Part shown: piece after piece, positions 7,297 to 26,077 of the stretch
How the letters are laid out: each line of letters begins with the position of its first letter
How positions within the stretch are numbered: position 1 is the stretch's first letter
Assembly: GCF_001956985.1 (NCBI RefSeq)
Contig: NZ_CP019082.1
Location: forward strand, 4,836,001-4,900,000
Direction: 5' to 3'
Source of the DNA: Paludisphaera borealis
GTDB taxonomy: Bacteria > Planctomycetota > Planctomycetia > Isosphaerales > Isosphaeraceae
Length of the DNA: 64,000 nucleotides
Translations under genes and position numbers: made by a program
Notes under the pieces: generated by a model
Databases searched by the model: none
Seen by the model: the letters and a program-made list of their open reading frames with translations, nothing else
Told to the model about the DNA's origin: nothing

Positions 7297-10200
7297 ATGA
7301 CGCGCATTCCTCATCCCCGGACTCTGGCATGCTGGCGACTCGAGTCTCCTGGAGGCCTCGATTCGTCCGGGTTCGGTCGGAGGATCGTGAACGATCGTGG
7401 TCCCCAACCGACCCTCATCGCCATGTTCGGCAAGACTCTGGGGATCTGGGCGATCATGGCCGCGTGGGGGTGTTTGGCCGGGGAAACGCCGTGCTTCGCA
7501 CAAGGCGTCCCGCCGGACTTTTTGAGTCCGACCCTGGTTTTGAATGCGCAGGGACATACGGACCTGGTTCAGGCCATGGTCTTCAGCAACGACGGCAAGT
7601 ATCTGGTCTCCGGCGGTCGCGACAAGGCCGTCCACGTCTGGGAGGTCAACGGCCGAGGGTTACGCCTCGATCGTTCCATCCGGCCCCCGATCCGGCGCCG
7701 CGGCGGACGGGTGCACGCCTTGGCCTTGTCGCCCACCGCCGACGCGCAGGGCCAGAGAATGCTGGCCGTGGCGGGGATCGGGGCGATCGGATCTCGCGGC
7801 GGGATCTTGATCTATCGGCTTCCGGGGCGAACGGACCAAGGGGCGGGCGACCTGCAATTCGAACTCTCTCCGGACCGTCTGGAAAGACCGGTCTTGGAGC
7901 GTCGAGGGCACGCCGGCGCGGTCTTCGGTTTGGCCTTCTCGCCCGACGGTCGCTATCTGGCCTCTTGCAGCGAAGACAAGACGATCCGCGTATGGGACCT
8001 GCTGGACGCGACACCCAAGACCGTTGCGGTCTTGCAAGGTCATACCGGCGAGGTCTCGGCTTTGTCGTTTCTCGACGACGCTCGGATCGTCAGTGGCGGG
8101 GGGGCGAAGGACGGCTCGATACGGCTCTGGGACTGGAGAACGCAACGGCTCACGACCTGGGTTCCTTGCCCCGAGCACGACCTGGCGGCCGACGAGGGCA
8201 AGGGAGTCGTCGTCAGCGCCCTCGCCGCCACCCGCGACGGTCGATACGTCGTCGTTGGACGAGAGAACGGCAAGATCGAGCGGTACGACGGCGCGGATCT
8301 CCGCAACGGCCAGCTTCTCAATCCCGAGTCCGCGGGAGAGCGCAGGGCCGTCGAGTCGCTGGCGATCAGCCCTGACGGGCAATCGCTCGCGTCGAGCGTT
8401 TTGAAGTACCGCGCCACGAGCCAGGACTACCCGCGCAAGGAATGCGACGTGGCCGTGCGCAGCATGCCTGAGGGTCGAATCGTCGGCGCGGTCCGCACGA
8501 TGAGCGGGTTCGTCAAAGCTCTCGTTTTCTCTCCGGACGGACGATCCCTGGCGGTGGCTGGAGGCGAAGCGCAGCAGATCGCCCTCCTCGACGTACAAGG
8601 ACGGGCGGACGATCAAGCTCCGCCTGCGAATGGCCCAGGCACGGTTCTCTGGGAGGCGGCCTTCGTCGACGCCAAGCCGACGGTGGCTTTCTCACGATCG
8701 CGGACCGTCGGTCCGGAGGCGATCGCCTGGGAAGGGTTCGATCTGGCGGAGCGGCGGTTCGTCCCGGTTGCGCCGGGCGACGCGCTCAGCAGGGCGGTGC
8801 GATCCACGCCCGGGTGGAAATTCACGCCGAGGGCCTTCGACCGGATCGCCCTCGAGCCGGCGCAAGGGGCCGAGATCCCGTTGCAATTGAGTCCGCTCGA
8901 CGGTCGCTGGTCCAGCTTCACGTTCATCCCGGCCAACGCCCAGGCCGGCCACCCCAAGCTGTGCGTCGCGATCGGCTGCGAGGAAGGCGGCGTGCTGATC
9001 TACAGCTTGCCGGACGGCGTCAGGACGCGCTTCCTGCTCGGTCACAGCGGCGCGGTGCAGGGCATGGCGCCGTCGGCCGACGGCCGTTGGCTGATCACCA
9101 GCTCGGCCGACATGACCCTCTCGCTCTGGAGCCTTGCCGGCTGCGACGCCCGGCCCGCACTCGGCGCCTCGATCGCACCCGACATCCCAGGGTCGGGGGG
9201 CGTGGTTCAGAAAGTCCTCTCGCGCAGCTTCGCCGAGCGGATGGGATTGAAGGTCGAAGACCGCATCGAGCGGATCACGCAGACCTCGCGCCGCGAGCCC
9301 CTGGCGATCGAGCGACTGGACGCGGAGCTGGCTTCGATCGCCCCTTCGCTGGCCGATCAGACGTCGTTTCAGGTCCATCGCCAGGGCGTCGGGACCGCGA
9401 TCCCGATGGCGACCTCGCGCTCCGACGTTCCCTCGTTGAGCCTGTTCCCCGGCGGCGACCGCGAGTGGGTCGTCTGGATGCCCGAAGGCTATTACGAGAC
9501 CTCCATCGCGGGCGATCGCCGGCTGCTGGGGTGGCATCTCAACCACCTTGATACGCGCGATCCGAACCGCTGGCTGTCACTGTCGTCCGAGTTCTTTCCG
9601 ATGTCGCGGTATGAGAAACAGCTCCGCAGGCCGGATGTCATTGACGCCGTGCTCAAGACCGGCGACGCCGTCGCGGCCCTGGCGCTGGCGAAGGGGACGC
9701 CAGTGGTCCAGAAGCCGCCGGCCATTCGCGTGGTCGAGCCCCGGCCGATCGCGCCGGGGGTTGAGATCGTGGCGACTCAGCCCGAGCTGAATCTGCGGAT
9801 CGAGGCGGAAGCCTCGCCGCAACGTCGGGTCCGTTCCCTGGTCGTTCACAGCGACACGATCCGCTACCCCGCCCATGCTATCGATCCGACGGCGCCGGTC
9901 GCTCGAGCGACCGAACAGATCCGGCTTCGACCCGACAGGAACATCGTCACGATCGAAGCGACCGACGATCTGGGCGTCACCGCGATCGAGAAGCTTGAGG
10001 TGCGGCTCGACGCCAGCCGGATTCGCCCGCCCGTGGTCCCGGTCCGGCCTCGAATGGTGATCCGCTCGTTCGGAATCGAGAAGTTCCAGGAACGGGTCGT
10101 CCCTGACATCCGGAACGCCCAGCGCGACGCCGAGAAGCTGGCGAAATTCTTCGAACGACCCGACGATCGGCTCCATTTCGCCGAGGATCAAATCGACCTC

Positions 10201-10851
10201 AAGGTCATCTCCGACGCGGAAGCGGACGCGAATCGGATTCTCGGCGTCTTCGACGAACTCGCCGAGGACGTGAGATCGAACAAGCTGAAAGCCGGCGACA
10301 CGGTATTCATCATCCTGGAGTCGCACGTCCTCAAGCCCGATTCCGCCGGGGCGGTCGTTCTTTCGGTGGATTCGACGCTCAAGAGCAAGGCCGAGAACGC
10401 CGTCGCGGGCGCGGCGATTTCCGAGCGTCTTGAAGAACTGACGAATAGCGGCTGTCTCGTGATGCTCCTCGTCGACGGCATCCACAGCGCGATTCCGAGC
10501 GCGGGGCGAAGCACGATCCAGGAATGGATTCGAGACCTCTCCGGCAACCGGGGCGTCCTGGTGCTGACAGCCTCGAAGCAGGACCCGAGCGAGAGGCTCG
10601 ACGAGCTTGGGGCCTTCGCGCAGGCGGTGCTTGAGTCGCTGAGCGTCACCGGTGGAGCCGCCGCCTCGACCGGCCCGAAAGGGGCGACGACGCTCTACGA
10701 CTTTCAGCAATCGGTCTTGCGACGAGTCTCCGAGCTGACGTCTCGACGCCAGTTCGCGGGCTTCTATCCGCCGGAAACCCTCTCCGGCTGGAACAAGATC
10801 CGTATCTTCGACCCCCAGGCTGCGCCGGTCGAAAATCTGGTCAAGAAATAA
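7297..10851 (+). CDS. WD40-repeat protein with PDZ-like segment and degenerate caspase-like C-terminal domain
   Basis: The ATG at 7297 follows GGGAGAGAG at good spacing. A signal peptide, however, begins only at Met43 (base 7423; MFGKTLGIW.., cleavage near CFAQG), so 7423 is an alternative start or the N-terminus is a long anchor. WD40 repeats occupy roughly residues 75-620 (..LVSGGRDKAVHVWEV.., ..LASCSEDKTIRVWDL..). Around 630-690 a PDZ-like stretch follows (FAERMGLKVEDRIERI). A segment shared with WD40-caspase proteins (PEGYYETS..GDRRLLGWH) comes next. The C-terminal ~250 residues have a caspase fold pattern. The catalytic His seems kept (LESHV, ~1010), but the usual DACHSG is DGIHSA, with Ile in place of Cys (~1062). 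It is probably an inactive scaffold. The role is inferred, and it sits beside other caspase-like genes. Confidence 0.85.
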   Translation: MTRIPHPRTLACWRLESPGGLDSSGFGRRIVNDRGPQPTLIAMFGKTLGIWAIMAAWGCLAGETPCFAQGVPPDFLSPTLVLNAQGHTDLVQAMVFSNDGKYLVSGGRDKAVHVWEVNGRGLRLDRSIRPPIRRRGGRVHALALSPTADAQGQRMLAVAGIGAIGSRGGILIYRLPGRTDQGAGDLQFELSPDRLERPVLERRGHAGAVFGLAFSPDGRYLASCSEDKTIRVWDLLDATPKTVAVLQGHTGEVSALSFLDDARIVSGGGAKDGSIRLWDWRTQRLTTWVPCPEHDLAADEGKGVVVSALAATRDGRYVVVGRENGKIERYDGADLRNGQLLNPESAGERRAVESLAISPDGQSLASSVLKYRATSQDYPRKECDVAVRSMPEGRIVGAVRTMSGFVKALVFSPDGRSLAVAGGEAQQIALLDVQGRADDQAPPANGPGTVLWEAAFVDAKPTVAFSRSRTVGPEAIAWEGFDLAERRFVPVAPGDALSRAVRSTPGWKFTPRAFDRIALEPAQGAEIPLQLSPLDGRWSSFTFIPANAQAGHPKLCVAIGCEEGGVLIYSLPDGVRTRFLLGHSGAVQGMAPSADGRWLITSSADMTLSLWSLAGCDARPALGASIAPDIPGSGGVVQKVLSRSFAERMGLKVEDRIERITQTSRREPLAIERLDAELASIAPSLADQTSFQVHRQGVGTAIPMATSRSDVPSLSLFPGGDREWVVWMPEGYYETSIAGDRRLLGWHLNHLDTRDPNRWLSLSSEFFPMSRYEKQLRRPDVIDAVLKTGDAVAALALAKGTPVVQKPPAIRVVEPRPIAPGVEIVATQPELNLRIEAEASPQRRVRSLVVHSDTIRYPAHAIDPTAPVARATEQIRLRPDRNIVTIEATDDLGVTAIEKLEVRLDASRIRPPVVPVRPRMVIRSFGIEKFQERVVPDIRNAQRDAEKLAKFFERPDDRLHFAEDQIDLKVISDAEADANRILGVFDELAEDVRSNKLKAGDTVFIILESHVLKPDSAGAVVLSVDSTLKSKAENAVAGAAISERLEELTNSGCLVMLLVDGIHSAIPSAGRSTIQEWIRDLSGNRGVLVLTASKQDPSERLDELGAFAQAVLESLSVTGGAAASTGPKGATTLYDFQQSVLRRVSELTSRRQFAGFYPPETLSGWNKIRIFDPQAAPVENLVKK

Positions 10852-10921: not shown

Positions 10922-11650
10922 TCAAGGCGGGCCTTTGATCCCGTAGGGCTTGACCTGGACTTCCACGCCCGCCTTGAGGTAGCCCTTGCTCGCCATATCG
11001 TCGCGGTCGGATGGCCGGATGTGGATGCAGCCGTGCGACTGGCTGAGGAGGAAGGTTTTGTGAGTGGCGGTCGCGCTCTCATCGTCCGGAGTGGTGTGGA
11101 TGTAATAAGCAGACCGGCCGCCGTTTTTCAAGAGATTCCACGACCACTTGCCAAAGTCATTCAAATCCCAGCTTGATTTGAGCGACCCTCCCGGTAGGCG
11201 GAACTGCGGCAACGCTCGGACCTCCTTGACGATCTGGGCGAATGGCAATTGCGCGCCCGAACGCTTCACCCACAGCACCGCGGCTTGAGTCACCTTTCCG
11301 TGCGTCCCGGTGGCATCGAGCCAGTGGCCGCCAATCTGGTATTGGATCTCGCCGCCGTGCTCGCGCAGCGTCGCTCCCCAGGGGATCACGGACATCGGCC
11401 AGTTTTGGGTGGTGTGGTGCTCCTGGCGTCCGAGGACGTATTGGCCAGCCGGGGTCACGCCCGCGGAGTGACCTCCTGGCCCAGTGGAGCCCTTGCCAGG
11501 AGGCGGACCACCCGCCATGTCGTACGACTCGCCCTTGCCGCCAATCACGTAGATGTGGCCCACAGTCGTCCCCACTCCGTTCTTCCTCTCGCCAGGGAAG
11601 ATCACGAGCTTGATCTTATGATGGCCGTGGTGCGCCTCGCCTGTCGCCAT
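10922..11650 (-). CDS. L,D-transpeptidase (YkuD) fold protein without signal peptide
   Basis: The protein has 242 residues. GGAGGA precedes the ATG by 7 bases. The C-terminal part carries the YkuD signature: a His upstream (HKTFLLSQ) followed by SHGCIHIRP, with Cys208 as the expected nucleophile and His206. YkuD enzymes make 3-3 crosslinks or attach lipoproteins in peptidoglycan using a Cys acyl-enzyme. Unlike typical cell-wall L,D-transpeptidases this one has no signal peptide and opens with a His-rich MATGEAHHGHH. It lies between two WD40-caspase genes, converges on the one at 7297, and is followed downstream by the large caspase gene on the same strand. A cytoplasmic or exported-effector role is possible but is only inference. 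Confidence 0.8.
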   Translation of the reverse strand: MATGEAHHGHHKIKLVIFPGERKNGVGTTVGHIYVIGGKGESYDMAGGPPPGKGSTGPGGHSAGVTPAGQYVLGRQEHHTTQNWPMSVIPWGATLREHGGEIQYQIGGHWLDATGTHGKVTQAAVLWVKRSGAQLPFAQIVKEVRALPQFRLPGGSLKSSWDLNDFGKWSWNLLKNGGRSAYYIHTTPDDESATATHKTFLLSQSHGCIHIRPSDRDDMASKGYLKAGVEVQVKPYGIKGPP

Positions 11651-11803: not shown

Positions 11804-14800
11804 TCAGTGTTGGGTCGTCTTGGCGGAATCGGGCGTTTCCATCAGCAAGAATGATGAGGTTTGCTCCGACTCCTGCGCGACGGCGGCCCTGGGGTTGTTG
11901 GACGCGTCTCCCCGCGCGCCTCTGAGGACGAGTTCCGGGAACGTCTGAGCGAGCCGGGGCACCGTGATGTCGGCGTACTGCCGCAATTCCCCGGTCTCGA
12001 CCCAGCCGTCGCGGTTCATGTCCGCGCTCGGGTACTGCTGGAACAACGGCAGGTCGGGAGACGGCCCCATTCCGGCCTGTCCGATGCCGCGCAGCAAGGC
12101 GTAGGTCAGCAGGCCGTGCTTGAGCCGTTCGGCCTCGCCGGCGCGCTCGCCGCGCCTCGCGGCCATGATGTACGACGTCCGGGCCTGGTAGGCGTCCTCA
12201 TCAGCCAGGATTCGCACCGAGCGCCTTTGCTTCATGCGGACGATCGGGTCGTCGAAGATCGCCTCGGCCTGGCAGGCGTCCACGATCACGAGTCGCTGAA
12301 GCGCATCGACGAACGACAGGTTGCGGTGAATCAGCGCATAGGGTAGGAGGGTCTTGTCCTGGGTCGGCGGGCGTTTGGGTGGTTGCGCCGGGGGGGCCGC
12401 ATTGTTCTCAACGCCACGCAGCGCCACGATCTCGGGCCCTCCCGCGGGCATCTCGGCCGTGGGCAGCAGGAGGCAGAAATATCCCTGGCGTACGTCGGTA
12501 TGCCCCGCGAGAAAGACGACGACCTTGTCTTCCGGCCGCTCCCGAACCTCTCTCCGCAGTTGCTCGAAGGCTTTGTTCACGGATTCCGCCGATACGTCCT
12601 CGTTGAGCAGGACGATCGGATCGGCGGGTTTGAGGGCGTCGGCGATCGCCTGAGCGTCGCTGTCGGCGTAGCGGAGCGCCTGCGAGCTGTAGCGGCTCAC
12701 CCCGAGCGCCAGGACGTGGGTCTTGCCGATCGTCTGGCCGTTGTACGTGAGGTCGAGCTGGTTCGATCGAGCGTCGATGCTCCCCGGCTTGCCGGCGAGG
12801 GCGTAAATCTGGTTGCCGCCGCCGACCAGGGTCACGGTCGCCCGGATCGTTCCGTCCTCGGGTTTCAGATCGCCCGCGACGGCGACGCCGTTGTGGTAGA
12901 GCCGCAGGTCAGTGACGGCTGGATCGCTGAGCCGGATCGCCAGGTCGACCCGACGTTGCTTGGGGCTGATCGCGGCGACCGGCTCGAGCTCGATGCGGGG
13001 GGGCTTGCCGGCGGGGATCTCGGCCGACGAAAGGACGTCCTTGGCCTGGCTCAAGCTGTCGGCGAGGTCGAAGACGTGCCGCTGCCGTCGGAGCTGATCA
13101 AGGCGCGCGACGACTTCGTCGCCCTGGTCGGCGGCCCCCTTGTCGAGTCGCCAGGTCACCCGACGTTCGCCCTCGGGCGACGCGTCGAACAAGCCGGCGG
13201 GGGTGAAGACGACCCAGTCGAGGCCGTCTTTCGACGCCGCCAACGTGCCGATCAGCGCACGGTCGGCGAGCCTCCAGAGGCGAACCGTCGTATCGTCGCT
13301 GGCGCTCGCGAGGAGCTTCCCCTGGGGCCAGAACACCAGGGTGTTGATCATCTCGAAGTGGCTGGGCCGCGTGTTGAGGAGGATCGGCAGACCGGGGCGG
13401 TTTGCTTCAAAAAGGGTGATCTGTCGGTTGTCGCCGGCGGCCGCGACGAGACGGCCGTCGGCGGAGAAGGCGACCGTGCGGACCATGCCCTGGAGGCCCG
13501 TGCTCACATTGATCGGTTTCGCGTCGCCGGGCTGCAAGAGGCTGAGCCTGCCGTCCTTCCGGCCGATCGCGATCAGGCCCCTTTCGCGAGGAGAGAAGGC
13601 CGCCGCGGTCACCGGAGAGGGCGCCGCGACGCCCTCGGCGTTGAGCACGCGCTCCAGCGTCGGCTCGGCGGTCGCGAGACTCCAGACCTTCACCAGGCCG
13701 TCGTCGCCGCCGGTCAAGAGCGAGGTTCCGTCGTGCGAGAGGCCGACCGTGTTGATCGCGTCGCCGTGGCCGCGAACGGGCTTGCACGCGAGCCGGCCGT
13801 CGGCGCTCTTCCAAACGCAGGCGAGCGGGCCATCCCGACTCCCCGCGGCGATCCGTCCGCCGGCCCCGACGGCCAGACTGTGAAATCCCCAACTCGAGGC
13901 CGTCTTGCCGTTCTCGGCGAGCGGACGCTCGAAGACGATGGGCCGGCGGGCGAGCGTCGCCCGTTCGTGGACGACGACGTTGCCGTCGTAGTCGATGAGC
14001 GCTAAGTCGCCGTCGGGCAGGAAGTCGCCCGCCGGCCGAAAACCGCTCGATCCGGGGACGCGGCGGGCGCCCCGGCCCTCGCCGAACTCCCACACCAGCG
14101 CCAGGCCGTCGTCATTGATTTGCAGCAAGGCTTTCTCATCCGGGGCGACGGCGATATGCCGCACCCGTCCCCGGCTGGCGGCGATCCCCGGCCTGGCCCT
14201 GCCGGCGGGGATCTCCCAGAACCGGATTCCGCCGTCGCCGTCGCCGGCCGCGAGGGTTTCGCCCCCTGGAGAGAAGCAAAGCGAGAGAGCCGCGCCGCGG
14301 TCTTTCCGCTCGATCTCGATGGGCGTCGCCGCGGTTCCGTCGTCGGACAATTCCCAGACCCGGAGTTCTCCGCGAAACGCGTCGCAGGCCGCAACCAGAC
14401 GTCCGTCGGCCGAGAGGGCGACCTGGGCGATCTTGCCGTCCATCGTCACCTCTTTCGAGGTTCGACCGGCCTGTTCGCCACGCGGCAGGACCTGCAGCGT
14501 CCGGTCCGTCGCCGCGACCAACCACAAGGGAGCCTCCTTGATCAGCGTGACCGTGGCGTTGAGCTTCCATTCCGCTCGCTTCGCCCCACCTGGCAACTCG
14601 AACTCGGTCACCACGCCGTCTTCACGGCCGACGTGGACGCGGCCGCCGTCGTCGGCGAGCGCCAGCGCCGTGATGCGGTTTGGCGTCGCGGGCAGCGAGG
14701 CGACGCTCTTGCCCAGCGCGTCGAACGCCAACACGACTTCCGCCCCCTTGCCCACGGGCGTGACGAGGCAAAACGCGACCGGGCCCGCCCGCTTGGCGAC

Positions 14801-16228
14801 GGCCAGCAACCGCGCCTTGCTCTCGGCGGGCATGGTCAGATACTGGATTTGCTGCCTTGTGGCGTCCCAGACGAGACACCGGCCTTGATTGTCGAGCGTG
14901 ACGACGTGACGGGGCGTCGGCCCGGCGGCTTGGGCGTCGGCGGGCGGTTCGGTAGGCTTCTCGGGGAGGAACGCGACCTCTTCGACGGGGCCTCGGTGCC
15001 GATGGCCGTCGTTGAACGTTCTGGCGATCTCGCGAGTCAGGTCGTAGATGTAGACTTCGCCCTTGCCTCCTCCGGCGGCCAGCAGCCGGCCGTCCGCGCT
15101 CTGGGCCAGGCTCCAGACGCCGTTCATCGTCGCCAGCATCACGCTCAGCAGGCTCGCGTCCTGGGCGTTCCAGATCCGGACGGTCGAGTCCTGGCTGGCG
15201 GAGTACAATCGGCCGCCGTCGGCGGCGAACGAGACCGCGGTGACCCGGTCGGCGTGCCCTCGTTGCAGGAGCGGCTCCGCCTTGGGCCGCGGGGGCCGCG
15301 CGTCGGCGGGCCAGAGGCTGAGGTCGGGGCGGAATCCGCCCGAGGTCCGGAAGCGCTGCGACGCCAGCGAGGGCTCGCGTCGGAGGCGGTCGAGGCACTC
15401 CAGCAGGTTGCTCGGTTTACGTCGCGTGCCGAGAGACGCGAGCAAGGACTGGGTCAACAATCCCGATCCTTCCTCGGCCGACTGACCCGAGGGCTTGTCG
15501 CTCGCGGCCAGCCACGCCGTCACCCCTGGCCACCGGACGACGCCCCGGAGCATCCGCTCGCCAGGCGCGAACTGCGCGGGGGAGCCCAGCACGCGAGGAG
15601 ATTGAACCCGTCCCGCGGGCGAGGCGTCGAGCAGGCAGACGATCGTGTAATCGCCCCGGGCCGCGACGTCCTCGATCGCCCGGCCCGGCATCCAGCCCGT
15701 CGCGTCGACGTCCGTGCCGCGTGCGTCCATCGGGATCAGGTAGTCGCGATCGGGAGCCCCCGGCCGCTGATTCGGATTGGGGAGCAGGCCGACGGCCTGG
15801 CCGGCGAAGAAGAGGACCAGCGTATCCCCCGGCCGGGCCTTGCTCGGCAGCCAGGTCCGAGCCCCCCAGTCGAGGTTGGCCTTCGTCGCGGGGCGATACT
15901 CGGGCTGGCTCGCGGGGTTGTCGAACCCGAGCGTCGCGAGGTCGCGATCGCTCAAGAGCAAGACGTGGTCCGCCGGCCATCCCGCGGCGTCGATCAGCCA
16001 GTGGGCCAGATTCGCCGCGTCGCGCGCGGCCCCTCGACAGCGAGGAAACGCCTGCGAATCCTCGTACCGCTCGACGCCCGCCAGCATCGCCCAGACCTGG
16101 GGCTTGGCGGGCTCCGGCGGCGCGGGGGGCTGCCCCGGGGCCGACCGAGCGACGGCGAGGGCGACGAACAATCCCAGTAGCCACGTCCGACCAGCTCGAA
16201 AAGGCATCGTCCGCCGCGTCGCGCTCAT
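11804..16228 (-). CDS. Caspase-WD40-caspase protein: inactive N-terminal and apparently active C-terminal caspase domain
   Basis: The start at 16228 overlaps the stop of the kinase gene (ATGA) and is followed by a signal peptide (RTWLLGLFVALAVARSAPGQ). The protein has about 1,474 residues. Residues ~42-310 form a caspase-like domain whose catalytic positions are lost: FAGQAVG replaces SGHG (Gln144), and LLDASPAG replaces LLDACHSG (Ser203). WD40 repeats run from ~322 to ~1050 (VRIWNAQD, VKVWSLAT, VRLWRLAD), followed by TPAGLFDASPEGERRVTW. A second caspase domain begins near 1170 and keeps the dyad: AGHTD (His ~1243) and VDACQAE (Cys ~1319). It is followed by an EF-hand-like loop, DMNRDGWVETGE. 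The likely role is a periplasmic or surface peptidase platform; the substrate is unknown. It is translationally coupled to the kinase-FGE gene. Confidence 0.88.
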   Translation of the reverse strand: MSATRRTMPFRAGRTWLLGLFVALAVARSAPGQPPAPPEPAKPQVWAMLAGVERYEDSQAFPRCRGAARDAANLAHWLIDAAGWPADHVLLLSDRDLATLGFDNPASQPEYRPATKANLDWGARTWLPSKARPGDTLVLFFAGQAVGLLPNPNQRPGAPDRDYLIPMDARGTDVDATGWMPGRAIEDVAARGDYTIVCLLDASPAGRVQSPRVLGSPAQFAPGERMLRGVVRWPGVTAWLAASDKPSGQSAEEGSGLLTQSLLASLGTRRKPSNLLECLDRLRREPSLASQRFRTSGGFRPDLSLWPADARPPRPKAEPLLQRGHADRVTAVSFAADGGRLYSASQDSTVRIWNAQDASLLSVMLATMNGVWSLAQSADGRLLAAGGGKGEVYIYDLTREIARTFNDGHRHRGPVEEVAFLPEKPTEPPADAQAAGPTPRHVVTLDNQGRCLVWDATRQQIQYLTMPAESKARLLAVAKRAGPVAFCLVTPVGKGAEVVLAFDALGKSVASLPATPNRITALALADDGGRVHVGREDGVVTEFELPGGAKRAEWKLNATVTLIKEAPLWLVAATDRTLQVLPRGEQAGRTSKEVTMDGKIAQVALSADGRLVAACDAFRGELRVWELSDDGTAATPIEIERKDRGAALSLCFSPGGETLAAGDGDGGIRFWEIPAGRARPGIAASRGRVRHIAVAPDEKALLQINDDGLALVWEFGEGRGARRVPGSSGFRPAGDFLPDGDLALIDYDGNVVVHERATLARRPIVFERPLAENGKTASSWGFHSLAVGAGGRIAAGSRDGPLACVWKSADGRLACKPVRGHGDAINTVGLSHDGTSLLTGGDDGLVKVWSLATAEPTLERVLNAEGVAAPSPVTAAAFSPRERGLIAIGRKDGRLSLLQPGDAKPINVSTGLQGMVRTVAFSADGRLVAAAGDNRQITLFEANRPGLPILLNTRPSHFEMINTLVFWPQGKLLASASDDTTVRLWRLADRALIGTLAASKDGLDWVVFTPAGLFDASPEGERRVTWRLDKGAADQGDEVVARLDQLRRQRHVFDLADSLSQAKDVLSSAEIPAGKPPRIELEPVAAISPKQRRVDLAIRLSDPAVTDLRLYHNGVAVAGDLKPEDGTIRATVTLVGGGNQIYALAGKPGSIDARSNQLDLTYNGQTIGKTHVLALGVSRYSSQALRYADSDAQAIADALKPADPIVLLNEDVSAESVNKAFEQLRREVRERPEDKVVVFLAGHTDVRQGYFCLLLPTAEMPAGGPEIVALRGVENNAAPPAQPPKRPPTQDKTLLPYALIHRNLSFVDALQRLVIVDACQAEAIFDDPIVRMKQRRSVRILADEDAYQARTSYIMAARRGERAGEAERLKHGLLTYALLRGIGQAGMGPSPDLPLFQQYPSADMNRDGWVETGELRQYADITVPRLAQTFPELVLRGARGDASNNPRAAVAQESEQTSSFLLMETPDSAKTTQH

Positions 16229-18615
16229 TTGACCGGACCTTTCTTCGTGGGCGGCTCCGGACTTGGGACGGGTTTCAGGTCGGCGATCACGACTTCCAGC
16301 ACCAGCCGAAAACCCACGTCGGGAAAGGCGTCGTTGTTCTTGGCTTTGTATTCGAAGTCCGGCGTACTGGAACGGTAGGTCGTACGCGCCATTTCGGTGG
16401 AGGTTTCGTAAGATCCTCCCCGGATTACGTAGTCCGGGTCTGTGTCCGCGCTCGTCGCCACGGGATCTGGGACGAGACCCTTGTTGATGTAGTGCTTCCA
16501 GACGTCGCGGCACCATTCGCGGGCGTTGCCGGCGAGGTCGTAGACCCCCTGCATCGTCTGGTCTTTCAGGTAGCGTCCGACGGGACGCGTTTTGATGGTG
16601 CGAGCCTCGGTGCTCAGGATATTGGCGTCTTCTTGATGAATCTCATCCCCTTCCCAGACGAAGCGCTTGCGAGCGCCTCGGGAACGCGCCGCGAACTCCC
16701 ATTGCGCCTCGGTGGGAAGCTCGCCGCCCAGGTCGTGGGCGTAGGACTCGCAGAATTTTCGAGACAGCGAGACCGCGGGGTAGTCGCCGAGGTTCTCCTC
16801 GACCGGAATCCCGAGATCGCTTTTCGCCTGGAGATAATCGACGAATTCGGGGCTCTTGGGCGATCGTCCGGAACTGGCGATATAGTCGTCGATCTCTCCG
16901 ATCGTCGTTTCCTTTTCCTGAATGTAGTACGTATACAGGCTGACTTTGTGGCTGGGACTCTCGGCCCCTCCCTTGAGTTCCGGGCTGTCGTCGCCCATCT
17001 CAAAGGTTCCTCCCTCGATCAGCCGAAACCGGACGGGCTTCCTCAGGATCTTGTCGACCACGAGCCGGGGCAAGCGCAGTGCCCCTTTGGTGTCTTCCGA
17101 AGTCTCGGGTTCCGAACCTTCCGGTAGGTAGATGCGGTCGTGCAGTCGTAATTTCCGATGCTCGTCGTCCTCGCGAACGATCGAAGCAGGCCAGCGCATC
17201 TCCTCGATCTCGACCGTCCCGGCCCCTGGATCGGGCTTATAGACCCTGCGGCCGTAATGCTGCGCGAGATACTCGACGACTTCCGGCGAAACGCCGGCGA
17301 CCGGGGGGGGAGCGGGAGGGAGGGGGGGAGGAGGCGAGACCGTCACCTTCACCCCGTTGAGCCAGATCAGCAATGCGGCCGGCAGGCCGATGGCCGCGAG
17401 GGCCAGCGGGATCACGACCCGGCGCGTCGGCCGCGCGCGGCGGCCGACGTCGGGCAAGGTCGGCTGGAGGGTCGCATTCGGATGAGGCGTCAGGAGCGGC
17501 AGCGCCGATTTTCTCGATTGAGGCCCCGAGGTCGTCGCATCGAGATCCTCGCCGGCGACGTCGCCGTAGGCCGCGCGGAGCGCGTTGTAAAGCTCGGCCG
17601 CGGACCCGGGCCGCTGGTCGGGCGTCTTCTCAAGGCAACGGAGCACCAGGTTTTCGACCGCCGGCGGAATCTGGGCCTGGGGGGCGACCAGGCTGGGCGG
17701 TTTCGGCACGGCGCGCGCGTGCTGATAGAGCAATTGGGTCCAGTCGCCCTTGAACGGAAGCTCGCCGGTCAGCAACTCGTAGAGCATGACGCCCAGCGAG
17801 TAGATGTCGCTGCGGTGATCGACGGGCGAGCGGCTCGAGGCGTCCATTTCAACCCCGTTCTGCTCGGGGCTCGAGTACGCCGGCGTGCCCAGAACTCCCA
17901 CGGTGTGCATGGTCGATGAAGACGCGTCGCCGACGTTGTGAATGATCTTGGCGATTCCGAAATCGAGCACCTTCACCGTCTGGCGTCCGGTCTCCGGGTC
18001 GGCCACGACCATGATGTTTTCGGGCTTCAGATCGCGATGGACGATCCCACGATTATGAGCGGCGCCGAGGACGTCGCAGATCCCTCGCATAAGCCAGAGG
18101 ATGAACGACGGGTTGCTCGGCTGCCCGCGCTTGAGATGCCGGCGAAGGCTGACCCCGTCGATGTACTCCATCTCGATGTAAGCCGAGTCGCCGACGATCC
18201 CCGTGTCGTGCACGGTGACGGCGTTGGCGTGCTTGAGCTTGGCCAGAATCCTGGCCTCCTGGTCGAACCGGGCGCGGACGTGGGAGTCGCCGGCGATGCC
18301 CTCGCTGATGACCTTGAGCGCCCGGTGCTCGTCCAGCCCCAGGTGCTGAACCAGCCAGACGCTTCCCATTCCCCCTTCGCCGATCTTCTGGATCACCCGG
18401 TACTTGCCGAGCAGGATCGCGCCCGGCTCGACGGCGCTGGGGAAATCGGCGCGGTGCGCCGCCTCGCTCGTCCGCTCGGGAACGGGAGACTGAACCTGGG
18501 TCGAGTTCGACGGTCGAACCTCGGCGCCGGGCGAGGAGGACGGAGACTCGGAGGACGCGAAAATCGGCACCGTCTTGTTGTCTTCGCTCTCGTTGTTCGG
18601 CCGCCCGCGTTCCAT
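16225..18615 (-). CDS. Transmembrane Ser/Thr protein kinase fused to a formylglycine-generating-enzyme (FGE-sulfatase) domain
   Basis: The protein has 796 residues. The kinase domain at ~70-350 is complete: a glycine loop (GEGGMGSV), Lys101 in ALKV, HRDLKPEN (Asp195), DFG (218-220) and SPEQ. A single transmembrane segment lies at ~400-420, then a Pro-rich linker. From ~526 to the end is an FGE-sulfatase/SUMF1-type domain (GGTFEMGDDSP, LPTEAQWEFAARSRG, GNAREWCRDVW, VIRGGSYE, VGFRLVLE). The topology predicts a cytoplasmic kinase and an extracytoplasmic FGE domain. Such fusions (Pkn1-like) are common in planctomycetes, where the FGE domain is usually thought to act in binding or sensing; that function is inference here. 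The stop overlaps the start of the caspase-WD40 gene, and the membrane caspase-like gene lies 95 bases upstream, suggesting one operon. Confidence 0.92.
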   Translation of the reverse strand: MERGRPNNESEDNKTVPIFASSESPSSSPGAEVRPSNSTQVQSPVPERTSEAAHRADFPSAVEPGAILLGKYRVIQKIGEGGMGSVWLVQHLGLDEHRALKVISEGIAGDSHVRARFDQEARILAKLKHANAVTVHDTGIVGDSAYIEMEYIDGVSLRRHLKRGQPSNPSFILWLMRGICDVLGAAHNRGIVHRDLKPENIMVVADPETGRQTVKVLDFGIAKIIHNVGDASSSTMHTVGVLGTPAYSSPEQNGVEMDASSRSPVDHRSDIYSLGVMLYELLTGELPFKGDWTQLLYQHARAVPKPPSLVAPQAQIPPAVENLVLRCLEKTPDQRPGSAAELYNALRAAYGDVAGEDLDATTSGPQSRKSALPLLTPHPNATLQPTLPDVGRRARPTRRVVIPLALAAIGLPAALLIWLNGVKVTVSPPPPLPPAPPPVAGVSPEVVEYLAQHYGRRVYKPDPGAGTVEIEEMRWPASIVREDDEHRKLRLHDRIYLPEGSEPETSEDTKGALRLPRLVVDKILRKPVRFRLIEGGTFEMGDDSPELKGGAESPSHKVSLYTYYIQEKETTIGEIDDYIASSGRSPKSPEFVDYLQAKSDLGIPVEENLGDYPAVSLSRKFCESYAHDLGGELPTEAQWEFAARSRGARKRFVWEGDEIHQEDANILSTEARTIKTRPVGRYLKDQTMQGVYDLAGNAREWCRDVWKHYINKGLVPDPVATSADTDPDYVIRGGSYETSTEMARTTYRSSTPDFEYKAKNNDAFPDVGFRLVLEVVIADLKPVPSPEPPTKKGPVK

Positions 18616-18710: not shown

Positions 18711-21700
18711 TCAGGGCGCTTGCCGCGGCGGCAGCACCTCGTTTTCAACCCTGCCGGTCCAGGTGAACTGATTCTTTCCCGAGACGGCGGGGCGCGTGGT
18801 TTTGATCGACTCGCCGGGCAAGATCTCGGCCTCGGCGCTCAGGCCTCGGCCGGTCACGCCCTCGATCGTGCAACTGAGTTCGCCCCCCTTGATGGGCTCT
18901 CTGACCGGGTCGTCCGCGCGTCGCGTGAACCGCACCACGTAGCACTGCTGGCGGACGTTCTCGAAGTCGTCGGGGCGGATGAACGTCTCGAAAACCATGT
19001 AGCTTGTATGGTCGATCTGGCGGAACCTGACGACGAACTCCGGGACGGCTTCCTTGCTCTCCTTGACGCTCAGGGACACCTTCAAGTCGCGGACCTGGCC
19101 TTTCGGCGCCTCAAGGGACGTCACCTTGCCTGAGATCGAGACGCTCTCTCCGGGAGCGATCGTGAGCTGTTTCTCCGCCTCGTCGATCGGGATCGGCTGC
19201 GCCGTGTTGCCGGGGTCGCTGAGCGTCCGTTTATAGGCGACGGTGAGTTTCTGAAACGTGACGTTCTTGAGGGTCAAGATGTACGCGGCGTGCTTCCCTT
19301 CGTGCATGTAGCCTTCGCGGGGATGCCGCTTGAACTGATCCTCGATCCGCTCCGCCGCCCCCTTGCCGAACCGGGTTTCCAGATCCTGGGGATCTTGCGC
19401 GATATCGACGAGAACCAGGTTCGGAAACGCCTTGGGAATGACGTCGACGACGGCTGCGCCCCCTTCGTCCACGCGTCCCCGGAAGAAGATTTTCGCCAGG
19501 GCCTTGAACGGGGTCTCGTTGCTCTTGAGATCCACCTGACTGACGGTGAACTTCACTGGACGCCCTTCTTGAGCCGAGGGGCCGACCTCTTCCAATCTGC
19601 CCGGAGGAGAATTCGAAGCGGAATCCACGCTGCTGATCCGCAGGCCTGGCGGCGGCGCGGCGACGCCGAGAAACGCCTTGCCTCGTGGAAGCGGCTCCGA
19701 CCGAACGACGCCGTCCTCGGGCGGCCCGACGCTGATCGACAGTGCGGCCTTGCCGTCCTCGCCGATCTTGAGCGACGAGCTTGCGGGGGGCGTCGTGACG
19801 ATCCGCAACGTCGGGCTGACTCGCGGACGGTCGCGATTCTCCGCGATCCCGAGCGGCCTGGCGAGTTCTTCGACGAGTCTCCGGAGACTGGCGGTGGTTG
19901 GGGCGTAGTCTTGCCGGAGCCGTTCGATGTGGAACAAGAGCGTGTCGTATTTCGCGAACGCCTCCCAGTTCTGTGAGACGGCGTCGGCCGGTAAATCTTC
20001 ACGTCGGATCGCACCATCGCAGAGGAGCCGGACCGCCCGGTCGTCGAGGCGGAGACTGAGCCCCACGTCTTCCGGCTTCCGGTCGTTCTCTCGATGGCGT
20101 TCCCCCCTCGCGCCGCTGTTCTGGACGCGCTCTTTCATCGCCGCAGCCTCATACTGCTTGAGCAAAGGCGTCGCTCGGGCGACCGTGTCGAGGGCGGCGG
20201 GCGCAGTCTGGACGATCGACCACGCGTCTTTGAGGAACCGGGCCGAGTCTTCCGTCTCGGGGTGATCGGCGCGACCGATCCGACGCAGGTCCCGGTCCAG
20301 CCCGGCCAAGCCCATCGCGCGGCTCCAGAAACCGGGGTCGGGCGTGTTCTCGGCGGCGTCGATCGTGCTCGCGTCAGCCTTGAGTTCCAGCCGTTCCCCC
20401 ATGTTGAGGATCGTATCGAGCAACCGCCGACGGTTCTCCACGGGAACGAGCGGAGTCCGGAGCGCCGCGTCGAGCGCGATCCACTCACGCGGCCCGTCGG
20501 TTCGCAAGGTGTTGAAAAGCTGTTTCTCGAGTTCGTCGATGGCGACCTGGGCGTTTCGGGTCGCGGCCTGGAGGTCGCTCGCCGGCTTCTGAATCAGTTC
20601 GAGAAAGCTCGCGCCTTTCTCCGGAGGCGGGCTTCGATCAAGAATATCGACCAGAGCAGCCGCGGCGCTCAGCCCTCGCTCGACGGCCGAGGGCAGCGGG
20701 TTTGTGGGCAGCGATTGGACGGTCGGGGCTCCCTGGCCGGCGCGGACGGCCCATTCCGCGAGTTCGGGAAGCTCGGCGGCGGCCCGCTCCCAGGTCTTAC
20801 GGGCGTCTTGGTAAACCTGGACGACTTCGAGGGCCGAGGCGTAGTTTCTATCGAACCGGGCGATGTCGCTGTTGAGTTGCCGCGCGACGTCTTCGGTCGT
20901 CAAATCGGGGGCGAAAAGCTGGTCTTGCGCGGCTCGCCGCTGATCGTCGCTCAGGGACAAGATCGGTCGGATCCAATCGAGGCCCCGGCGATCGAGCGCG
21001 AGAGCGTCCTCGGCGCGGGCGCGGACCTGGACCAGCCGGCGGAGAATCGAGCCCCGCCGGTCGTCCTTGAAGTGGTCGGGCGCGGCGAATTCCTGGCTGA
21101 ACCGCAATGCCCATGCGGGCAACTGGAGTTCGAGGTACGGCTCCGGAAAGCCGCCGAACAGGGCGTCGGCCAGCGCTTTCGGGGGATCGATCGGCTTGGG
21201 CTTCGCCGCTTTCGGCGCGTCGGGCGCCTCTTTCGCCAAGGGGGGGGCCGCGTAGAGGTCGTCTTCTTCCGGTCCGGCCCCGGTCAGGTAGATCAGGGAA
21301 TCGGTGATCGCCCGTTTTCCCGCCTCCACGCCTCGCGCCGGCCGCAAGGGGAACGCGGCGTCCGAATCCAGGATCGTCTTGAGTCGATCTTGCAGCTCGC
21401 CGCGCCGACGTCCAACGTCTTCGAGCGCCTTCTGAACGGAATCGATTGATTCGGGGTTGCGCCAGGAGGCCCGCAACCACCGTTCGGCGCGCAAGAGGCC
21501 GGCCTGGTACGACCGCCAGGTCTCGGGAAGCTCGTGATAGGGTCTTTGCTTGCGCAGGTCGTCGTGCTGCTTCCATTCCTTGATCAAGTCCGCGAAGACT
21601 CGATCGCGGGGCGCGGACGGCTCCACTTTGGTCGGCTCGGCCGTGGGGGCGTTCTTCTCGGCGGCCGAGGCGTCCTTCTTCGCCGTCGCGGGGTTTTCGG

Positions 21701-22613
21701 TCGGTTCGGGCGCGGATGCCGAGGCTGCGGCCGGCTTCGCGGCGAGCGCGGCTTCGTCGTGCCGTGGAGGCTGCTCGCCAAGGTCTTTGCGGTAAGGGAG
21801 GGTGATTTTTCGAGAGCCGCCGCCGATTCTCACGAGCATGGGCGTCTGGACCGCGTTGCGATGGTCCTTGGCCCAGTGCGAGACGTGGCGGTGGACGTAA
21901 CGGTGGAGCCCCTCGGCCGACACCTGTCCATAAGTCTCTGGCGCGTCCCAGCCTTGGGCCTTGCCGCTGAGTCCTTCGCGCAGGTAATGGGCGAACGTCG
22001 ACCGGCCCAGGCCGTCGGCCCCCCAACTCTTCTGAGCCGGGGCGCTCGAGGTCAGGATGTAGACGCAGCGGTCGCCCGCCGTCAGCCCCGATACCATCTC
22101 GGCGAGCCCCTCGTAGGGACAGTTTCCATAGACGCCGAGGTCGCGATCGCTGTCGACTTGCGCCAGGTCGAGGGCCAGCACGACGTCGCGCCGGGCGTCT
22201 TTGACGACCATGTCGATCAGGGATCGGATGGAGGCCGAGCCGATCATGGCGTCAGGACCGTTGCCGATCACCGGGGCGGAGACGTAGACGACCACGGCGG
22301 CGTCTGATCGGGAGACGATGTTCTTGACCGCGTCGGTGAGTCCGTCGGGGCCGACGGCCGCCACGTCGTCGGTCGGTCCGACGCCGCGGAGGGACCGGAC
22401 GTCGGCCGCCTGAAAGGGAGCGTCTGTTCCGGTCGAGAGCGCCGGGGCGACGTACAACGCCTCGATGCGCAATTCTCTCGATCGCTGCCGGATGAACCAG
22501 AACAACAGCCACGCCAGGAGAACGACGGCGACCGCCGTGAGGGCGCTTTCCAGAATCAGAAGCGAAAGCCGCGGCTTCGTGATCCGAACCGGGAGCGAGG
22601 CTGCGGTCGACAT
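18711..22613 (-). CDS. Membrane-anchored catalytically dead caspase-like protein with long helical C-terminus
   Basis: The protein has 1,300 residues. A transmembrane helix at ~18-41 (LESALTAVAVVLLAWLLFWF) is followed by a caspase-fold domain at ~50-275. Diagnostic late-domain features remain: CVYILTSSAPAQKSWGADG, GRSTFAHYLREGLSGKAQG, LHRYVHRHV, and QTPML. Both catalytic positions are gone: YVSAPV replaces FSGHG, and LDLAQ replaces LDACH (Ala151). An Ala/Pro/Lys/Glu linker (~285-335) leads to a long, mostly helical region of about 600 residues with Trp/Arg-rich repeats, then a beta-rich C-terminus (~960-1300) that may be an adhesion or binding domain. The architecture fits a membrane scaffold that senses or recruits partners. 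The next genes downstream are the kinase-FGE and the double-caspase protein. Confidence 0.83.
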   Translation of the reverse strand: MSTAASLPVRITKPRLSLLILESALTAVAVVLLAWLLFWFIRQRSRELRIEALYVAPALSTGTDAPFQAADVRSLRGVGPTDDVAAVGPDGLTDAVKNIVSRSDAAVVVYVSAPVIGNGPDAMIGSASIRSLIDMVVKDARRDVVLALDLAQVDSDRDLGVYGNCPYEGLAEMVSGLTAGDRCVYILTSSAPAQKSWGADGLGRSTFAHYLREGLSGKAQGWDAPETYGQVSAEGLHRYVHRHVSHWAKDHRNAVQTPMLVRIGGGSRKITLPYRKDLGEQPPRHDEAALAAKPAAASASAPEPTENPATAKKDASAAEKNAPTAEPTKVEPSAPRDRVFADLIKEWKQHDDLRKQRPYHELPETWRSYQAGLLRAERWLRASWRNPESIDSVQKALEDVGRRRGELQDRLKTILDSDAAFPLRPARGVEAGKRAITDSLIYLTGAGPEEDDLYAAPPLAKEAPDAPKAAKPKPIDPPKALADALFGGFPEPYLELQLPAWALRFSQEFAAPDHFKDDRRGSILRRLVQVRARAEDALALDRRGLDWIRPILSLSDDQRRAAQDQLFAPDLTTEDVARQLNSDIARFDRNYASALEVVQVYQDARKTWERAAAELPELAEWAVRAGQGAPTVQSLPTNPLPSAVERGLSAAAALVDILDRSPPPEKGASFLELIQKPASDLQAATRNAQVAIDELEKQLFNTLRTDGPREWIALDAALRTPLVPVENRRRLLDTILNMGERLELKADASTIDAAENTPDPGFWSRAMGLAGLDRDLRRIGRADHPETEDSARFLKDAWSIVQTAPAALDTVARATPLLKQYEAAAMKERVQNSGARGERHRENDRKPEDVGLSLRLDDRAVRLLCDGAIRREDLPADAVSQNWEAFAKYDTLLFHIERLRQDYAPTTASLRRLVEELARPLGIAENRDRPRVSPTLRIVTTPPASSSLKIGEDGKAALSISVGPPEDGVVRSEPLPRGKAFLGVAAPPPGLRISSVDSASNSPPGRLEEVGPSAQEGRPVKFTVSQVDLKSNETPFKALAKIFFRGRVDEGGAAVVDVIPKAFPNLVLVDIAQDPQDLETRFGKGAAERIEDQFKRHPREGYMHEGKHAAYILTLKNVTFQKLTVAYKRTLSDPGNTAQPIPIDEAEKQLTIAPGESVSISGKVTSLEAPKGQVRDLKVSLSVKESKEAVPEFVVRFRQIDHTSYMVFETFIRPDDFENVRQQCYVVRFTRRADDPVREPIKGGELSCTIEGVTGRGLSAEAEILPGESIKTTRPAVSGKNQFTWTGRVENEVLPPRQAP

Positions 22614-24152: not shown

Positions 24153-26077
24153 TTAATTTCCTTCCATCTGGAGCGCAAGGCCGATGTCGAGTTGGCAGAG
24201 CCGGTCGTAAATCACGCTTGCACGCGTGTCATCGCGGCCGCGCAAGCATTGATAGAGGTTCGAGAAAACGCGAGCGCAGAGGGGAGTGTCTTCCCATTGA
24301 TCCAGATGAAGCTCATCGACGCGCTGGGCGAGGCCCTCAAGGATGGGAAGCGCCAGCGCACTGCGATTCAGCGCGATGCAGAGTTCGGCTTGTTGCAGCG
24401 CGCGGATGAACCGCTCCCGACCGCTCCCTGCCTGGCGCGCGGCCTTGGCCATGATCGAGAGCGCCTCCGAGAGGTTGCCGGCGTGAAGAAGCGCCTGGGC
24501 CTCGTCCCAAGGATCGCGGTGGGCCGGGACGGCGGACGCCTGCCCGATCGCGTCGCCGGCGGGGACTGGAGCCGGTGCGGAGGATTCCTGAAGCCTGGCG
24601 AGCCCGACGGCGGAAGTCTTCTCAGGTTTGTCGAGGAGATCCTCCGCTTGCAGCCAGGCGCGGGTGCCGCCCGAGGCGGTCGGAGTTCCGTCTCTCAATT
24701 CCGCGTCGGGCCACGCGGGATACGCTTGAAGAAAGGCCTTTAGGAGCGCCTTGCAGGCTCGCGCGGGGTTGTCGTATCCGAGGGCGGTGAGCGCGTTGCA
24801 GGCGTACCAATGGAGGTCGAGCCATCCGCGCCCCTCGGCCCGGCCCATCGCGCGCTCGGCTTCATCGAGGCATGACGCCCAGTGATCCTCGTCATCGGCC
24901 CGGGCGGCCTGGACGAGCTTCTCGCGGACCTCGCTCGAGGGGGGCGTGAGTTGCGAGGAATCGATCTCGCCGGCGTTCGCGAAGGCACCCCCCATCGCGA
25001 GCGCCCTGAGGACGAGGTATGACGTGGGATCGGCGATGTCAGCTTGCCGGAGGAAATGGGCGGCATCGGCGATCTGCTCGCGCGCGTCGTCTACGGAGTC
25101 GAGCTCTCCCCCCGCTGGACGTCGTCGAGCCGGCTTTCGAGGCGCGGGCGCCGACGTTTCGGCGGGCTCCGAACTCCAGTCGGCCTGGGACTCGTCGGAC
25201 GCCTCGACCTCGTGTTCTTCGGAGGTTTCCGAATCGCCCCACCCGTCATCGGTCTCCGTGGGCGGGGGGGCGGCGGCTCCGCGGCCGGCTTTTTCGCCAG
25301 CAGTTGGCCGACGAGCTTCTTCACCTCGGTGAGCGCGATAAAGATCCGATTGAGTTGAGGCGCCTGCTGTTTCGCCGGCCATCGCGCTTTGATGACTGCG
25401 TTGATTTGATCGACGACGGCCAGGCATTCCTCGATCAGCGCGAAGAGGTCGACGTAGAACGGACGGTCGGTCGCCCGGAACGCCTCGTCGAACTTCTCTC
25501 CTCGGAGCCGGCCTTCAAGGTGGATGGCCTGCTGGTCCTCGTCACTGGACATGCGTTTGGAAAGGTTGTCCGCTTTCCGCGACTCTTCGTACTTCAGGCA
25601 GGAGTAGCTGAGCTCCGGCGAGCCCGGGATGTACGTGACGGGCGCGTTTTTCACCAGCAGCGGAATCAGTCGCTCGTGGTCGAGGAAATCGTAGACTCCC
25701 TCGCGAAATTCGAGGTCGCCGCGGGCGGGATGGATTTCCTCCCAGAAAGCCTCCTGAAGCGCCCCCACCAACTTGAGCCCGTCTCGAATCCCGACGAGCC
25801 CATGCTGGTGAGCCAGCGCCTCGGCCACCCAGGCGGCGATTTGAAGGTCCTTGGTCTTCTCGCGGAGCAGCTCGGTTCCAAGCTTAAGGATCGCGTTCCA
25901 GTCCGCGGTCTTTCGCTGCCGCTTCCAGACGTCGACCTCCCCAGCGTCCTCGTCCGCCCGCCGCGATTCTTCAAGCTCCGCGTAAGCGTCTTCCCAGCGC
26001 AGGTAATCGCCGACGGGATCGTCCGGCGAGATCGGGCTGAGGAATTCATCGAGTTCCAACACGGCTGGCTGAGACAT
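24153..26077 (-). pseudogene. tssA: tssA, type VI secretion system protein, split by a -1 frameshift at a C7 run
   Basis: The start at 26077 has GGGGAG upstream. The first ~269 codons encode an ImpA_N (TssA N-terminal) domain (LSPISPDDPVGDYLRW, WVAEALAHQHGL, WEEIHP). The frame then runs into a Pro-rich linker encoded over a run of seven C (minus strand; plus bases 25264-25270). Beyond it, the downstream frame carries TETDDGWGDSE and the VasJ-like C-terminal domain (HFLRQADIADPTSYLVLRAL to LEMEGN-like end). Restoring one base at the run joins both parts into a full-length protein of ~640 residues. TssA caps the distal end of the growing T6SS sheath. No other tss gene is in the window. The break could be a sequencing error, a real mutation, phase variation or slippage. 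Confidence 0.8.

Follow-up and report, generated by a model that had tools for sequence, protein, structure and literature searches.

An Isosphaeraceae WD40 protein that joins a pseudo-caspase domain to an apparently active caspase domain

Pseudo-caspases are common in bacteria. In the animal c-FLIP(L)/caspase-8 pair, where a dead caspase domain is matched with a live one, FLIP is a protein separate from caspase-8 and carries death-effector domains. According to the available part of PMC3501461, bacterial metacaspases are joined to WD40 more often than to any other partner domain (73 of 671), and the His-Cys (HC) dyad is kept in only 64% of planctomycete metacaspases. The accessible text of PMC8283722 describes cyanobacterial pseudo-orthocaspases mostly with C14 as the sole domain and with YS or YN as the prevailing pairs. 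In a 2019 survey, proteins with more than one p20 domain were classed as 'ambiguous' (PMC6426788, in the portion available).

We analysed a stretch of 64,000 nucleotides of Paludisphaera borealis DNA (NZ_CP019082.1, positions 4,836,001 to 4,900,000), hereafter the window. One of its genes encodes a protein that resembles WD40-type orthocaspases in joining an HC-dyad caspase fold to WD40 repeats (available parts of PMC3501461 and PMC8283722), and pseudo-orthocaspases in having a caspase fold without the HC dyad (available parts of PMC6426788 and PMC8283722). Unlike the WD40-type orthocaspases, it carries two caspase folds flanking the repeats, one of them dead, and it is probably exported. Unlike in the cyanobacterial pseudo-orthocaspases, QS or QG is the usual pair and a live domain sits in the same chain as the dead one. 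Here both are fused in one probably exported protein; the anatomy is solid and conserved, and from it we infer a mechanism. Among the matches listed from titles and abstracts and from open-licence PMC articles, we found no report of a bacterial dead-plus-live caspase fusion and none of a caspase at a type VI secretion (T6SS) locus.

The original prediction had likened the arrangement to FLIP-like control. The pairing is an analogy only, and unlike in FLIP, only 43 signal-peptide-like residues precede the pseudo-caspase, which leaves no room for FLIP's death-effector domains. No such domain was found among the best 25 of the 45 Pfam families for the whole protein, and the isolated N-terminal domain matched only C14 (E up to 10). 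The original prediction made no mention of the export-type start, the adjoining membrane kinase, the second nearby pseudo-caspase or the T6SS genes.

Architecture and catalytic positions of the two caspase domains

The features of the locus are collected in Table 1. The two caspase domains, hereafter the N-domain and the C-domain, are separated by about 700 aa of WD40 region (Pfam), and the C-domain follows a short segment rich in beta structure that by eye may be Ig-like. In a search of 45 Isosphaeraceae genomes with the N-domain, 29 had matches at E<=0.001; relatives of the protein are present in 26 of the genomes, which makes 28 genes including that of the window. C-domain counts are out of 27, with L055 left out because its gene is cut by a contig end. 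Since the full-length alignment misplaces the Cys column of the N-domain in some rows, dyad counts were taken from domain alignments.

Table 1. Features of the caspase locus (window positions)
Feature	Position	Strand	Basis or remark
Pseudo-caspase / WD40 / caspase gene	11804..16228	-	1474 aa ORF
Signal-peptide-like start, aa 1-33	16130..16228	-	By eye and hydropathy
N-terminal pseudo-caspase domain, aa 44-313	15290..16099	-	Pfam C14, AF2, hhalign, hmmsearch, VIA-align
Gln144 codon, catalytic His position	15797..15799	-	Alignment
Ser203 codon, catalytic Cys position	15620..15622	-	Alignment
WD40 repeat region, about aa 319-1016	13181..15274	-	PF00400, 147.2 bits, 6 stretches
C-terminal caspase domain, about aa 1166-1440	11909..12733	-	Pfam C14, AF2, VIA-align
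His1243 codon, catalytic His	12500..12502	-	His in 26/27 genes
Cys1319 codon, catalytic Cys	12272..12274	-	Cys in 27/27 genes
EF-hand-like loop, aa 1403-1414	11987..12022	-	Domain alignment; weak calmodulin-like matches
Ser/Thr kinase, transmembrane segment (about aa 400-418), FGE-like domain	16225..18615	-	Pkinase and FGE profiles, hydrophobic segment
Convergent WD40 protein with C-terminal caspase fold, second pseudo-caspase	7297..10851	+	His1010 kept, Ile1062 at Cys position
1300-aa protein with N-terminal hydrophobic segment, upstream of kinase	18711..22613	-	Homologues in 8/27 other loci
Two overlapping frames matching T6SS TssA	24153..26077	-	ImpA_N, TIGR03363, VasJ profiles

A hydrophobic stretch precedes the N-domain in 27 of the 28 genes (12-residue hydropathy mean of at least 1.6, with up to 74 residues ahead of the domain scored); the exception is L059 with 0.72. 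In L040, L041 and L046 the start has more the look of a membrane anchor. On hydropathy and visual inspection the window protein begins like an exported one, with a probably periplasmic or envelope location; that it is an exported protein with one dead and one live caspase domain we consider very probable.

Gln144 and Ser203 had been predicted to replace the catalytic His and Cys of the N-domain. They lie in FFAGQAV and LLDASPAG, respectively, and a comparison of the N-domain and C-domain ortholog alignments with hhalign (probability 97.7%, E 1.5e-12) paired FAGQ with LAGH and LDAS with VDAC, so both residues do occupy the catalytic positions. Gln144 was also aligned by hmmsearch to the His of the yeast metacaspase Yca1, in an alignment that stops before the Cys. 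Yca1 is the nearest solved structure of the N-domain by sequence (E 6e-8), and metacaspases are among the nearest by fold. The AF2 model of the N-domain is a caspase fold (pLDDT 94.3, pTM 0.93) with MALT1 as its best VIA-align match (Z 21.3, 207 residues, rmsd 2.9). The C-domain model is likewise a caspase fold (pLDDT 78.9, pTM 0.83; three segments below 50), closest in VIA-align to metacaspase 4 (Z 17.1, 210 residues, rmsd 3.1), with MALT1 at Z 16.6 (208 residues, rmsd 3.6). Metacaspases and MALT1 were returned for both domains by Foldseek and VIA-align, and legumains by VIA-align too.

Across the 28 genes, the N-domain pair is QS in 11, QG in 5, HS, AA and QA in 2 each, and KS, RS, HT, RT, KC and QP in one each. 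HC occurs in none, so Gln144 and Ser203 are not a sequencing slip. The isolated N-domain scored 19.4 bits with Pfam Peptidase C14, under the cut-off of 21.4, and with the dyad lost as well it falls outside the active members of that family; it has the marks of a pseudo-orthocaspase, a caspase fold with the HC dyad replaced in 28 of 28 genes. Could it still be catalytically active, through Ser203 or another residue? Ser holds the Cys position in 15 genes, but Gly (5), Ala (4), Thr (2), Cys (1) and Pro (1) hold it in the others, and the His position is taken by Gln (19), His (3), Lys (2), Arg (2) or Ala (2). No candidate pair is conserved across the 28 genes. We give an active N-domain practically no chance.

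The C-domain keeps His1243 within AGHTD and Cys1319 within VDACQAE, in agreement with the original prediction. The HC pair is found in 26 of 27 genes, and the remaining one (L059) has RC, with Arg for His. Across these genes, the catalytic pair is kept at the C-terminal end of the protein and given up at the N-terminal end. The isolated C-domain scored 33.4 bits with Pfam Peptidase C14, above the 21.4 cut-off. The residue after the catalytic His is Thr or Ala in 26 of 26 genes. Gly is usual there, and was present in 38 of the 39 other domains whose His motif could be matched (motifs in other caspase domains were counted by simple patterns). This makes the C-domain atypical, and its activity needs showing. 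By its motifs it is apparently a working caspase-type protease. Conserved Asp two before the Cys and conserved Asp1191 recall metacaspases, and our guess is that the substrate would have Arg or Lys at P1. Caspase-fold proteases that are secreted do exist. A catalytic Cys in an oxidising compartment is a point that needs explaining for an exported C-domain.

The EF-hand-like loop, DMNRDGWVETGE, follows the pattern DxNxDGxVxxxE, for which about 0.002 occurrences are expected by chance per 180 residues. Its positions 1, 3, 5 and 12 are D in 27/27, N or D in 26/27, D in 25/27 and E in 27/27 genes. Of 46 other caspase domains, 14 contain a similar loop by simple pattern, and 12 of those 14 also have His and Cys motifs by pattern; seven archaeal orthocaspases are described with EF-hand motifs (PMC6426788, available part). 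The loop had been put forward as a sign of Ca2+ dependence as in metacaspases. As a motif it is genuine and conserved, and it is a putative Ca2+ site. The likeness to metacaspases does not extend to it: their calcium site is the 280-loop of p10 (PMC5756287, in the part available), so the EF-hand-like loop is a different site.

The invariant residues of the N-domain are W41, D92, F98, G100, W196, L236 and G254 in domain numbering, and the dyad is not among them. The Asp two before the Cys is present in 18 of 28 N-domains, and thus lost in 10, versus 27 of 27 C-domains. Together with the length of WD40 region between the two caspase domains, this favours a reading in which the N-domain has borrowed the caspase fold simply to bind a ligand or protein, as a scaffold, and makes no contact with the C-terminal protease, which the WD40 region or calcium alone would control. 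The second pseudo-caspase in the same module, however, hints at caspase-to-caspase contacts. The plain scaffold is possible and, to us, rather doubtful.

Conservation, distribution and origin of the protein

Compared with three relatives from the same genus, the window protein is 68-71% identical in the N-domain, 68-70% in the C-domain and 56-62% in the WD40 region. For 25 relatives, the median identities are 38.6%, 46.2% and 32.7%, respectively; L055 and L059 were left out of the identity comparison. On these values the N-domain is under constraint: within the genus its conservation roughly equals that of the live domain, and across the family it is somewhat lower. This bears on the idea that it is a decaying relic without function, for which the lost dyad and the Pfam score under the cut-off could speak. 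All 28 genes, including relatives with as little as 27% identity, have the domain without an internal stop, and with its within-genus conservation this argues strongly against decay; we regard a relic as very improbable. The predicted fusion in cis of a pseudo-caspase to an apparently active caspase on one WD40 protein is borne out as a conserved arrangement.

The hosts of this protein are soil planctomycete bacteria. The gene is dispensable, as a strong match is missing from 13 of the 36 family genomes sampled, including two of the six from the genus of the window (G029, G031). In 297 class genomes, with at most 8 candidates scored per genome, N-domain matches at E<1e-60 were confined to Isosphaeraceae, and the next-best matches, from 2.7e-21, belong to caspases whose dyad motifs are intact. 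In a phylum sample of 392 there were three N-domain matches at E<=1e-20, two within the family and one of 1.8e-21 in a 467-aa frame. Among the next-best matches was a protein with two tandem caspase domains (L108/L109). In this planctomycete protein (L109 163-3129), both have His and Cys motifs by pattern and each is followed by an EF-like loop; its C-terminus is FGE-like by eye.

In the genome of the window, one other Peptidase C14 profile match was seen, below the cut-off (9.1e-4; L002 889-3339, G000:C1:4114418). It lies in a protein with a TIR and a methyltransferase domain, with the motifs YYYGVA and IDCA without His and Cys by eye. More C14 proteins may exist in this genome, because the C14 profile misses the N-domain and the partner protein described below too. 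With the curated EACC1-associated caspase profile NF047832, the whole protein scored 49.6 bits, under the 140 required. A known defence system was considered with PADLOC and set aside: the N-domain partly matches a caspase model (4.4e-9), and no complete known system was found. Other PADLOC matches were to a HEAT-ARM model, through the WD40 repeats of the partner, and to kinase models of candidate systems.

For the origin of the N-domain, we built a tree from 17 of 28 N-domains, 17 of 27 C-domains, 12 of 18 partner domains and 46 other caspase domains. The N-domains, C-domains and partner domains each formed one clade. With weak support, the C-domains and partner domains grouped with caspase domains located late in their reading frames and the N-domains with mostly early-lying ones, and the N-profile favours early-lying domains and the C-profile late-lying ones. 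Caspase-WD40 proteins with the caspase first exist in other planctomycetes (L061), and an Acidiferrobacterales contig carries a WD40 protein with the caspase domain last (L084). A fusion of caspase-first and caspase-last WD40 proteins is a plausible origin on this pattern. The protein may also have arisen by internal (tandem) duplication, the N-domain deriving from the C-domain. The AU test is compatible with this: N and C as one clade was not rejected (p 0.597), its likelihood being slightly higher.

Neighbouring genes and a possible link to type VI secretion

The stop codon of the kinase gene overlaps the start of the caspase gene by 4 bases. Of the 27 other loci, 22 have a kinase upstream in the same orientation. 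Among the remaining five, three (L055, L056, L057) are cut off by contig ends within 0.6 kb, and two (L044, L051) have none in 5-8 kb upstream. Pkinase and FGE were found in all 10 kinases scanned out of the 22, as in the window's own, and by simple pattern all 22 kinases read have DFG and 20 an HRD-type motif. The upstream kinase of a distant relative (L054 4149-8591) has two tandem kinase domains with one HRD-type motif by pattern, possibly a pseudokinase-kinase pair. We think it quite likely that the kinase acts in the same pathway as the caspase protein.

On the other side, the convergent WD40 protein (the partner) ends in a caspase fold that hhalign relates to the C-domain with 99.2% probability. 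In 18 relatives including that of the window, the Cys is absent from all and the His kept in 16; a 341-aa fragment in L038 was left out of these counts. Of the 27 other loci, 18 have the partner inside the stretch of DNA that was retrieved. In 15 of the 17 relatives with a convergent partner, the gap between the two genes is -3 to 263 bases. In G037 and G038, from one genus, some 14 kb separate the partner from the caspase gene, so that the two are not adjacent, and in L059 it is on the other side. In the window, a gene for a YkuD-type L,D-transpeptidase (10922-11650) sits between the two convergent caspase-fold genes.

Out of 36 family genomes in the class sample, 22 have both proteins, one has the caspase gene alone, none the partner alone and 13 neither; by genus code, 11 have both and 7 neither. 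The partner (E<=4.6e-30) is thus in 22 of 23 carriers versus 0 of 13 non-carriers (Fisher p 6e-9, a value that is too small because the genomes are related). Most partner genes are adjacent to the caspase gene, so linkage explains much of this co-occurrence. The sole carrier without a partner is G021, whose contig ends inside the caspase gene. The match in G034 (4.6e-30) is far weaker than the others (9.7e-61 or better), and if it is another gene the count becomes 21 of 23. The partner profile also has weaker matches of caspase type in some non-carriers, the best in G008 (1.7e-17).

The 1300-aa protein upstream of the kinase gave no clear family match. Its N-terminal part is faintly caspase-like by eye, and it was considered as a third pseudo-caspase; the motifs are suggestive, but profile comparison gave probabilities of 10.3% and 3.5%, which does not support the candidate.

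Further upstream, ImpA_N and TIGR03363 score over their cut-offs in 25091-26077 and VasJ in 24153-25427. About 5-26 kb left of the window (G000:C1 4809792-4830921) there are frames for TssB, C, E, F, G, K and L, an IcmF-type protein, a ClpV-like ATPase and a VgrG-type frame. In 45 genomes, caspase and T6SS occur together in 17, the caspase only in 9, T6SS only in 5 and neither in 14 (Fisher p 0.016). In nine of the 17 genomes with both, representing four genus codes, TssC and the caspase gene are 9-24 kb apart. TagR is FGE-like. In the PpkA pathway it acts as a periplasmic activator (available parts of PMC6657622, PMC10482370 and PMC6082577), and a membrane Ser/Thr kinase with an outer domain is, on predicted topology, encoded here as well.

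These observations favour a module that is an accessory of type VI secretion, with a PpkA-type kinase whose outer domain is TagR-like (FGE) and with exported caspases that would sense envelope attack and license T6SS assembly. Against it, 9 of 26 caspase carriers, including the near-complete G012 and G022, have no match to TssC (sheath), and the kinase-caspase pair is kept without one in L043, L046, L047, L052 and L059. Where both are present, TssC and the caspase gene can be far apart: 4.9 Mb in G037, and on different contigs in 7 other genomes, including the near-complete G038. Because of the carriers without a TssC match we treat this link as a rival and not as the main reading, and we consider it unlikely. 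The likeness to TagQRST-PpkA-Fha is that here too, in some genomes, a membrane kinase with an outer domain is found near T6SS genes. The available parts of PMC6657622, PMC10482370 and PMC6082577 describe no caspase in that system, whereas here a kinase-FGE fusion goes with WD40 caspases, also in genomes without a T6SS match.

A possible mode of action

Our preferred reading, which we hold tentatively and at slightly less than even confidence, is an exported WD40 scaffold with a live C-terminal protease and a non-catalytic regulatory or docking N-domain, acting with the membrane kinase and the second WD40 pseudo-caspase. The N-domain would have lost catalysis and been retained for regulation or docking. 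The step in which it regulates the C-domain is possible and somewhat doubtful. In this arrangement the FGE-like domain of the kinase would face the same compartment as the exported protein, and the three proteins would be in contact. The WD40 region and the two pseudo-caspase domains would hold the protease or set its position, both in cis and in trans. Given an envelope signal, and with the EF loop occupied by calcium once the protein is exported, the C-domain would then cleave its target, and the kinase would relay the state into the cytoplasm.

A more far-reaching version, which is speculative and quite improbable, is an Isosphaeraceae exported switch that senses envelope damage by proteolysis. 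Two WD40 scaffolds bearing three caspase domains, one live and two dead, would be wired to a membrane kinase, as a counterpart, probably convergent, of the animal live/dead pairing; as part of the same improbable version, the switch would in some lineages sense attack relevant to type VI secretion.

The family offers a dead and an apparently live domain in one chain across many genera, together with a near-constant second dead partner, and this makes the question whether dead controls live in bacteria testable by deletion of single domains. With this protein it could be examined whether 'dead' protease copies control proteases in bacteria, as they do in animals. If the preferred reading is true, export and coupling to a membrane kinase would shift bacterial caspases from a setting of death and defence to one of envelope signalling.
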